Shown here piece after piece: positions 50,128 through 52,124 of a stretch of 64,000 nucleotides of DNA. The position numbers were made by a program, and so were the translations under genes. Positions within the stretch are counted from its first letter, which is position 1, and each line of letters opens with the position of its first letter. The notes under the pieces are model-generated. The model searched no databases, had not been told where the DNA came from, and saw only the letters and a program-made list of their open reading frames with translations. Location: the NCBI GenBank assembly GCA_017511605.1, contig JAFWJL010000001.1, forward strand, positions 1-64,000. Direction: 5' to 3'. Source of the DNA: Bacilli bacterium (GTDB lineage: Bacteria; Bacillota_I; Bacilli_A; RF39; UBA660).

Positions 50128-50156
50128 TTGACATTTTTGAAAAATTTTGATATAAT
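50128..50156 (+). promoter_or_regulatory. perfect consensus promoter of the large structured RNA
   Basis: TTGACA (50128-50133), exactly 17 nt, TATAAT (50151-50156) preceded by TGA (extended -10). This is the strongest-looking promoter in the window and predicts a start near 50163. Confidence 0.88.
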
Positions 50157-50162
50157 TATACC

Positions 50163-50793
50163 TGTAATTGATGGCACATTATTCTAGTCAATTACTTTAT
50201 TATGAAGACGATCGTAAAAAGTCGTTAAAAGGCACATCTGTGAAACCTCTGGTGTTTGCTTCTTACGCCCAGTTTGGGGTGGATGCTGGAGATGAGAATC
50301 TTGGGCGACTCATAATGGCATATGAATCACGACCCATTATTCGTGGAGACCAATTCTTGTGGTAAATCTATACGAACAACTTCTGATGATATTACTACGG
50401 TATTGGATATGAACCTGTATTGTGGCGAAAGCTATGTACAGTGTAGCCTGTCTTGCGTGAAGGTTTTGGGATAAATGATCTCTTTTATTTTTGGGCGGCC
50501 ACCCATAATAAAAATTGCATTTTGAAATAATCTTTGCAAAAAAGAATTAATATTAAAGTGTTGGAGAGGAAATCTCCTAGAGTGTACTTCAATATAAGAT
50601 TGCAGTGGGCACTAAGTGGTAATCAAGTCGTATGTTTGGAAACAACATATTGATTTCTTTAAAGGGGAACCACAATATTGGTAACGATATTGTAGAAATC
50701 AGGGAAATCCTACTTGACCTATGGCTCAAAGTTAATTATATTGAATGCCAAACAATTTTTGAAAAAAATAAGTAGTCAAACTACTTTTTTTTT
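50163..50793 (+). ncRNA. large structured RNA, probable OLE RNA
   Basis: About 630 nt with no credible gene, from a perfect promoter to its own terminator, visibly richer in G and C than the rest of the window. Many perfect helices are readable: 50164-50171/50188-50195 (8 bp); 50266-50271/50302-50307; 50415-50419/50437-50441 leading to a GAAA tetraloop (50427-50430); 50563-50567/50573-50577; 50651-50658/50694-50701 (8 bp) enclosing a hairpin 50672-50693 capped by GTAA. Length, order and the OapA-like gene right downstream fit OLE RNA, which forms a membrane-bound ribonucleoprotein affecting ethanol, cold and magnesium tolerance. RNase P, tmRNA and 6S signatures are absent. The class call rests mainly on the neighbour. 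Confidence 0.75.
50770..50793 (+). terminator. intrinsic terminator of the structured RNA
   Basis: Perfect 7-bp stem 50770-50776/50780-50786 and nine T. It marks the RNA's 3' end and separates it from oapA. Confidence 0.85.
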
Positions 50794-50794
50794 A

Positions 50795-50803
50795 TGCTAT
50801 AAT
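50795..50803 (+). promoter_or_regulatory. extended -10 promoter for oapA-like gene
   Basis: TGCTATAAT, 18 nt before the ATG; lies right after the RNA's terminator, so the protein has its own transcript. Confidence 0.6.
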
Positions 50804-50821
50804 TTAAATAGAGGAATAATT

Positions 50822-51406
50822 ATGAAAAAACAAAGTGAATTAAAAAACTTAGTAGAACAAACTAAAAAAAGAGAAAAGATAAAAAAAGAAAGAGTAGATA
50901 TCAAATGGATAATCACAATTATAATAGTGGCATTTGTTATTTCATTTGGATTGTCTTTTGTAGCAAACTCTACAATACCTAATCTATCATTAGTATTTGG
51001 TATTATTATCACATTAGTATTTATACTTATAGGTATATTATTTGATATTATCGGAGTAGCAGTAACTGGTGCAGATGAAGCTGTATTTCATTCAATGGCT
51101 TCCCGCAAAGTAAAAGGAGCATCTACTGCAGTTAAGTTAAAAAAGAATGCCGATAAAACATCAAGTTTCTGCTGCGATGTAATAGGTGATATCTGTGGTG
51201 TTATTTCAGGTGCCGCTGGTACTACAATATGTGCAATATTAGTAACTAAGTATCACACAGATTTATTACTAACAGGATTAATATTAACCGCAATTATTTC
51301 ATCCTTAACTATAGGTGGAAAAGCATTAGGTAAAAGTTTTGCCATTAATAAAAGTGATATTATCTTATATGAGTTTTCAAAATTTGTTTCAAATTTTTAC
51401 CATTAG
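50822..51406 (+). CDS. oapA: OLE-associated membrane protein OapA-like
   Basis: 194 residues from the ATG at 50822, behind GAGG. The frame runs open upstream to 50714, but that would cross the terminator and promoter. Lys/Arg-rich N-terminus (about 15-28), membrane helices near 29-48 and 55-77, a conserved-looking cytosolic loop GADEAVFHSMASRKVKGA (83-100), then NADKTSSFCCDVIGDICG and two more helices (about 120-141, 148-170). Size, four helices, the acidic DE-x-x-FH loop and position after a 600-nt RNA match my knowledge of OapA, which binds OLE RNA and tethers it to the membrane. Distant resemblance of this type of protein to CorB/CNNM magnesium transporters has been noted in annotations. 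Confidence 0.75.
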   Translation: MKKQSELKNLVEQTKKREKIKKERVDIKWIITIIIVAFVISFGLSFVANSTIPNLSLVFGIIITLVFILIGILFDIIGVAVTGADEAVFHSMASRKVKGASTAVKLKKNADKTSSFCCDVIGDICGVISGAAGTTICAILVTKYHTDLLLTGLILTAIISSLTIGGKALGKSFAINKSDIILYEFSKFVSNFYH

Positions 51407-51461: not shown

Positions 51462-52124
51462 ATGGGATACCGATTAGATGATAAAGAAATAAAAAAATTT
51501 AATGTTAGATTAATTGGTAAAGGTAAAAAAGGAAATGTTTATCGTTTTCATGATGCTGCCTTAAAACTATTTAAAGAAGATATTCCTCCTATTGAAGAAG
51601 AAACAGCAAAATATTTAACAAGTATTTCTACAGATAGAATTCTACTTCCTATAAATCTAGTATTTTATAATAATAAATTTAGAGGATATACATATAAATT
51701 AGTACCTAAAAAAGGTTCTGGTCAAAGAATGACAATGTTACCTAAAACAGACTTAGTTCAAGATATTAGAATCTTAGAAAGAGATATTGATACATTAACT
51801 GATAAAAGTGTATTATTAAGTGGTTTAGATGAAACAAATAGTATCTTCAATGGTGAATTATATCTAACAGATCCATCAGGATATTCAGTACTAGAAGATA
51901 TGAGTAAAGATGAATTAAATAGAATTAATAAATTTCAATTACACTTATTATTAGTGAAATTAATTAAAATAGATTTAAATAAAACTAATTTTTCAACAAA
52001 AGCCAATATAGATGAAATTGAAAGAATGTTAAAGACAAAAGATGCTGATGAAAATAGTAGCGATTTCTTCGCAGAAATAATAAGTAAAAATGATACAGTA
52101 AGAGAATTTGTAAAAAAACTATAA
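51462..52124 (+). CDS. minimal protein-kinase-like protein
   Basis: 220 residues, cytosolic. IGKGKKGNVYRF (18-29) is a glycine-rich loop and ALKLF puts Lys35 in the ATP-lysine position. LDETNSIF (Asp123, Asn126) looks like the catalytic loop and LTDPSGY (Asp137) like the metal-binding DFG motif, 14 residues apart as in kinases. The HRD His is absent. The C-lobe is very short. It may be an active atypical kinase or a pseudokinase. It lies 55 nt after oapA with a separate weak promoter (TATAGT). Confidence 0.6.
   Translation: MGYRLDDKEIKKFNVRLIGKGKKGNVYRFHDAALKLFKEDIPPIEEETAKYLTSISTDRILLPINLVFYNNKFRGYTYKLVPKKGSGQRMTMLPKTDLVQDIRILERDIDTLTDKSVLLSGLDETNSIFNGELYLTDPSGYSVLEDMSKDELNRINKFQLHLLLVKLIKIDLNKTNFSTKANIDEIERMLKTKDADENSSDFFAEIISKNDTVREFVKKL

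Follow-up and report, generated by a model that had tools for sequence, protein, structure and literature searches.

A probable OLE ribonucleoprotein locus, with an apparently free-standing ole gene next to oapA, in a probably host-associated lineage of Bacilli

Few well-conserved bacterial RNAs of unknown biochemical activity are as large as OLE (PMC11332333). In the case of Halalkalibacterium halodurans, it is described as part of a polycistronic RNA (PMC12265935), and it carries a CCUCC mimic that is bound by bS21 (PMC12054373). Cryo-EM work describes three bridges in the dimeric RNA, formed by A-A pairs at L4, by L5/L6/L7, and by the palindromic kissing loop L9.3, the sequence of which switches among GGCC, GAUC, and AGCU (PMC12286853). 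OapA, its membrane partner, is distantly related to the CNNM proteins and carries a DxxxD motif, which is absent from CNNM domains (PMC11332333). OLE was reported in 2024 in the gut lineages RF39 and TANB77, largely without OapB and OapC, together with a variant 2, common in RF39, that lacks P7 and P8 (PMC11332333). The variants covered by the accessible text of these reports concern P7–P9 and the J6/7–P8 region (PMC11332333, PMC12265935).

We have analyzed a 64,000-nt stretch of a Bacilli bacterium assembly (GCA_017511605.1, contig JAFWJL010000001.1, positions 1 to 64,000), referred to as the window, in which the features collected in Table 1 were located. An earlier note, made from the letters alone, had drawn attention to a gene-free tract of about 630 nt with many helices, GNRA loops, and raised G+C content, and had proposed that it encodes OLE. 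Both points are borne out. The Rfam OLE model RF01071 matches the window with 396.6 bits (cut-off 50; E 5.1e-113) from end to end, i.e., over model positions 1–616 of 616, and the sequence itself forms standard pairs at 139 of the 153 model pairs. The loops GGCGAAAGC, TGGAAACA, and TGGTAACG, read from the sequence, are of the GNRA type. The RNA has a G+C content of 35.7%, against 26.2% in the window, a value reached by only 2 of 1268 sliding segments of 628 nt, which possibly overlap each other. The transcript is predicted, at both ends, to run from about 50163 to about 50790 (~628 nt). Together with the protein discussed below, the identification of the pair as OLE and OapA is virtually certain. 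A 65-aa open frame within the RNA (50168–50365) was considered as an encoded peptide and discarded as a gene, being open in just 5 of 47 relatives. A phage origin was likewise rejected, since a phage collection gave no blastn match.

Table 1. Coordinates of the features discussed. Positions refer to the window, except for the mini-OLE RNAs, which are numbered within their own loci; the assignment of loops to published names is our own.
Feature	Position	Strand	Remarks
ole promoter	50128..50156	+	-35 TTGACA at 50128-50133, 17-bp spacer, extended -10 TGATATAAT at 50148-50156
OLE RNA (extent of RF01071 match)	50155..50767	+	covariance-model match and covariation
A-rich hairpin loop, putative L4	50213..50224	+	bridge B1; bridge from PMC12286853
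GCCCA loop, putative L5	50265..50272	+	bridge B2
Loop UAAUGGCAUA, putative L6	50313..50322	+	bridge B2
Hairpin GGGCGGCCACCC, putative L9.3	50493..50504	+	palindromic loop GGCC, bridge B3
Intrinsic terminator between OLE and oapA	50770..50793	+	hairpin 50770-50786, T-run to 50793
Candidate separate oapA promoter, extended -10 TGCTATAAT	50795..50803	+
Likely oapA ribosome-binding site GAGG	50811..50814	+	read from sequence
oapA, 194-aa CNNM-like membrane protein	50822..51406	+	ATG start; motif, homology, fold, position
Codons of the OapA signature DxxxD (D119-V-I-G-D123)	51176..51190	+	signature named in PMC11332333
Neighboring gene, 220-aa protein-kinase-fold protein	51462..52124	+	treated as a clade-level neighbor
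Mini-OLE RNA, L100	2663-3043
Mini-OLE RNA, L101	2669-3046
Mini-OLE RNA, L107	1016-1393	-

The pairing scheme is under constraint among the relatives of the window. When species genomes were scanned with the OapA protein, 52 loci were obtained, and an OLE above the cut-off was found in 49 of the 50 searched genomes with OapA relatives (L051 and L052 lie outside this search), the single miss (G033) holding the final 95 nt of an OLE at a contig start. When the Rfam pairs were transferred to the window and followed through all 48 complete sequences, L038 included, 88.9% of the cells were paired and 98 of 153 pairs showed two-sided changes; in a control in which the partners were slid by 1–3 columns, the same sequences gave 39–48% paired cells and 30–41 pairs with two-sided change. 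The corresponding values for a subset of 43 out of 47 complete OLEs (L016, L027, L042, and L051 left out) are 89.1% and 94 of 153, as high as in none of 500 shuffles. Some pairs fail, three of helix 2 in 39–42 of the 43 sequences, and helix 10 is paired at 61.9% in this subset.

The protein encoded behind the RNA, for which the earlier note had pointed out a DE-x-x-FH loop, indeed carries ADEAVFHSM, and its assignment to OapA, also proposed there, holds by motif, homology, fold, and position. The DxxxD signature is present in 53 of 53 OapA copies, and the window protein is 43% identical over 176 aa to the protein of an ole-oapA-dxs cluster (hhalign probability 100). The Pfam CNNM model reaches 19.7 bits on it, below the cut-off of 28.4, with no further domain, and NCBIfam gave no match to this protein or to the product of the neighboring kinase-fold gene. 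An AlphaFold2 model built from 31 aligned sequences (pLDDT 87.6) has CNNM, CorB, and CorC structures as its best four fold matches in the PDB, with E-values from 4e-3 for the best to 1.4 for the fourth and TM-scores of 0.45–0.55; the predicted fold is thus CNNM-like by a weak but specific resemblance. As a profile search of PDB sequences with OapA returned no match, the link to CNNM proteins rests on the fold comparison and the sub-threshold Pfam match. A full-length OLE (399.8 bits) was also met, as a chance control, on the Pusillibacter faecalis plasmid pMM59_01 (NZ_AP023421.1; L106 3940–5176), where the order is OLE, a ‘CNNM domain-containing protein’, dxs, and a TlyA-family methyltransferase; the protein of this cluster is the one with 43% identity to the window protein, and the 504-kb plasmid is typed as conjugative by MOB-suite.

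With regard to the host, the closest relative among the loci is L006, from the metagenome-assembled genome (MAG) RUG13398, with 94% identity in OapA. Judging from their titles, related MAGs come from goat, sheep, roe deer, and ‘Lapin’ samples, under labels such as Bacilli, Erysipelotrichaceae, or Bacillales bacterium, and the RUG series is one that we take to denote rumen. These titles support the view, already put forward from the sequence, that the lineage is host-associated. In a sample of 146 genomes of the order to which this nearest relative belongs, drawn from a larger group and searched with stricter filters, OLE was found in 95, with lengths of 543–617 nt in 62, 480–541 nt in 31, and about 380 nt in 2. 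It was not detected in the remaining 51 sampled genomes, a count that is too high, as at least one of them, G176, holds the 3′ part of an OLE at a contig end; OLE may be dispensable in the order. One genome (G003) shows, besides, a second and partial OLE at a contig end (L102 2956–3424), with the first 90 nt poorly matching, which is perhaps a misassembly or a contamination. The sampled order is very probably RF39, since the 480–541-nt class, which occurs there beside full-size OLEs, fits the published variant 2, and since the genomes are small and the MAG titles point to the gut. A gut host comes as no surprise, given that the report of OLE from RF39 and TANB77 dates from 2024 (PMC11332333); the class to which the pair in the window adds a member is already known, as is the host group, and since gut OLE is already in print, the gain for the window is modest.

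The surroundings of the pair differ from the usual operon, as had been noticed before: the neighbors are a zinc-ribbon membrane protein (read from the sequence, with no match in Pfam), the kinase-fold protein, and an ABC-F ATPase, with no dxs. The model of the kinase-fold protein (pLDDT 91.1) retrieves kinases in all 50 PDB entries listed, with a best E-value of 6e-8. Its alignment suggests that a Gly stands where kinase motifs have the catalytic Asp; some relatives (e.g., L019 and L022) have the Asp. Of the 52 loci, 31 have a relative of this gene behind oapA, at a distance of 37–138 nt in 30 of them and 772 nt in L040. That ole, oapA, and this gene form one functional unit, a signaling module, would be in keeping with the protein-kinase fold and with the persistence of the arrangement in these 31 loci despite fast divergence (19–60% identity to the window copy), but we consider it unlikely. 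The family is multicopy, with some copy in 57 of 146 genomes, including genomes that lack OLE, and in only about 8 of the 146 does a copy adjoin OLE or OapA, one of these copies being a fragment; moreover, the ABC-F gene is near as many loci (38 of 52), which argues for plain synteny. As a general partner of OLE, the kinase-fold gene was rejected, the family being, across the order, multicopy and mostly unlinked, and we treat it as a clade-level neighbor.

Both the promoter and the terminator listed in the earlier note could be located (Table 1). The -10 element of ole is TATAAT with a TG extension. Within a 75-nt stretch at the 5′ end of the RNA, at least 10 of 12 consensus bases are found in 46 of 47 sequences, and all 12 in 36, against 5% of shuffles reaching at least 10; the end of the -10 sits 2–3 nt inside the model match in 37 of 47. 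A terminator-like hairpin with a stem of at least 6 is present between ole and oapA in 48 of 52 sequences, against 11% in shuffles, and was not found by the same test in L027, L030, L045, and L047; both sets of shuffles preserve base composition only, and the long OLE-oapA gap in eight loci (L009, L015, L029, and L048–L052) leaves more room for chance terminators. The candidate -10 of oapA, absent from the earlier note, has counterparts among the relatives, TGNTATAAT being present within the 45 nt that precede oapA in 27 of 53 and missing there in 26 of 53. In one relative (L009 4883–6985), about 2 kb with two ORFs separate an intact ole from oapA. These signals make it very likely that ole is transcribed separately from oapA, and the gene looks free-standing. 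A different reading, in which the RNA is a long structured 5′ leader regulating oapA in cis rather than an independent RNA, would account for the short distance between the two, the OLE end lying at most 170 nt from oapA in 44 of 52 sequences (54 nt from model match to start codon in the window), as well as for the three mini-OLE genomes described below, in which no terminator was seen and oapA starts no more than about 10 nt from the end of the model match. It is nevertheless very improbable in view of the terminator that intervenes in 48 of 52 sequences, the separate -10 in 27 of 53, the two ORFs (162 and 516 aa) lying between OLE and oapA in L009, and the action of OLE as a separate RNA described for H. 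halodurans (PMC12265935).

The known protein partners of OLE were searched for in the order, and the counts that follow refer to sampled relatives of unstated completeness, not to the genome of the window. None of the 146 sampled genomes of the order yielded the OapC family (YbxF, L7Ae family; PF01248), whereas the same model found it in 7 of 14 control genomes, Bacillus subtilis included. The gene for OapB (YbzG, a KOW protein) often sits before infA, and in 12 of 12 genomes of the order the gene directly before infA is map (6) or adk (6). KOW matches, obtained with a short model, number 1–2 per genome in 24 genomes and fall in frames of 97–124 or 174–216 aa, which we take from their sizes to be L24 and NusG. 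By this gene site and by the short KOW model, no OapB candidate was seen in the sampled relatives. The bS21 gene is present in 132 of 146 genomes, and was not detected in that of the nearest relative (G006); the CCUCC(U) ASD mimic of H. halodurans was looked for as well, and the CCUCC of P6 occurs in 0 of 48 OLEs. An anticorrelation of MpfA with OLE, published for Bacillota, is not visible within the order, where strong full CNNM (MpfA-like) matches are rare both in the genomes that bear OLE (5 of 95) and in the others (4 of 51).

Unlike these partners, the loops that make the dimer contacts have been kept. Equating the Rfam helices with the published P and L numbers on our own assignment, L5 reads GCCCA and L6 GGCAU in 43 of 43 OLEs of the clade, L9.3 has GGCC in 40 and AGCU in 3 of 43, and the A-run of L4 measures 3–6 nt, being as short as 3 in 7 of 43; the conservation covers L4, L5, L6, and L9.3. 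We infer that OLE in this lineage functions in the absence of OapC and of the published bS21 contact, and probably of OapB as well. As OapC, the bS21 mimic, and probably OapB are missing while the dimer loops are retained, the working unit is probably the RNA plus OapA. The converse proposal, that the RNA is a decaying relic in a reduced genome that has lost the partners, is scarcely credible, for the undetected OapC family, the lack of an OapB candidate, the vanished bS21-site mimic, and the 51 of 146 sampled genomes without detected OLE are outweighed by strong compensatory covariation, conserved dimer loops, near-consensus promoters, and a full-length RNA in the window.

A much shorter OLE occurs in one family, which includes close kin of the window (e.g., G026). 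Three of its genomes (G076, G083, and G267) carry mini-OLEs of 378–381 nt that score 134–139 bits. In G076 and G083, the stretch of about model positions 74–277 (P5–P8) is shrunk to about a dozen bases, and the mini-OLE of G267 aligns throughout with these two. The 5′ conserved segment, the L4 A-run, the base of P9, a GAUC-loop hairpin, and the 3′ domain are retained, and an oapA with DxxxD follows the model match within about 10 nt in the three genomes. The mini-OLE core is 94–98% identical among the three, whereas the first 48 columns upstream of the -35 are 31–60% identical; since the core is more alike than the upstream flank, sequence comparison indicates that the RNA is under selection. 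As the three genomes are close relatives, they may represent one event. The mini-OLE is the newest part of our findings, and its priority is not certain.

We tentatively suggest, with the odds slightly short of even, that the OLE particle in this order has been stripped to the RNA and OapA, made as two transcripts and lacking OapB, OapC, and the bS21 contact, and that the mini-OLE is its irreducible core. If this were true, the core would consist of the 5′ conserved segment, the L4 A-run, the P9 arm with the palindromic L9.3, and the whole 3′ domain, and P5–P8, which hold the OapC/bS21 switch and bridge B2, would be a regulatory addition rather than a working part. The core of about 380 nt would then be the place to seek the core activity of OLE. 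With fewer partners, a strong promoter of its own, and in some species about 60% of the length, OLE in this order would help to tell essential parts from regulatory ones, and the mini-OLEs would offer small natural constructs for biochemistry and cryo-EM.

All together, we propose that the window encodes an OLE ribonucleoprotein by an ole-oapA pair, an explanation to which, taken as a whole, we give a probability of roughly 0.75. The ole gene would be transcribed from its near-consensus sigma-70-type promoter into an RNA of about 628 nt that stops at its own terminator, and oapA could be made from a second promoter overlapping the end of that terminator. The RNA would dimerize via L4, L5/L6, and L9.3, and the dimer would bind OapA and be held at the membrane, where the particle might serve a CNNM-like function in metal (Mg2+) or stress control, in line with what has been proposed for H. 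halodurans. We regard such a metal or stress role as evenly balanced between being right and wrong.

Compared with the full-length OLE of the H. halodurans type (RF01071), the RNA of the window shares the end-to-end match, the same helices, the conserved loops, and an oapA directly downstream, and differs from it by its own promoter and terminator in place of a polycistronic cluster (PMC12265935), by the lack of an adjoining dxs, and by a P6 without CCUCC; with respect to the RF01071 consensus, a small hairpin at model positions 424–435 is almost entirely missing. Variant 2, described for RF39 (PMC11332333), very likely occurs in the same order as the window RNA, where 31 of 95 sampled OLEs measure 480–541 nt and the two inspected (L103 and L105) lack the P7/P8 stretch. 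The window RNA differs from it in keeping P7 and P8, and 62 of 95 OLEs are window-like as judged by length (543–617 nt) and score. In the case of the protein, the likeness to OapA lies in the DxxxD signature, the CNNM-like predicted fold, the place behind OLE, and the 43% identity, and a longer charged N-terminal part (194 vs. 178 aa) sets it apart. The CNNM Mg2+ transporters MpfA, CorB, and CorC resemble it in the modeled transmembrane fold, whereas the window protein stands apart from them by a Pfam CNNM score below the cut-off, by having no other domain, and by the presence of DxxxD.
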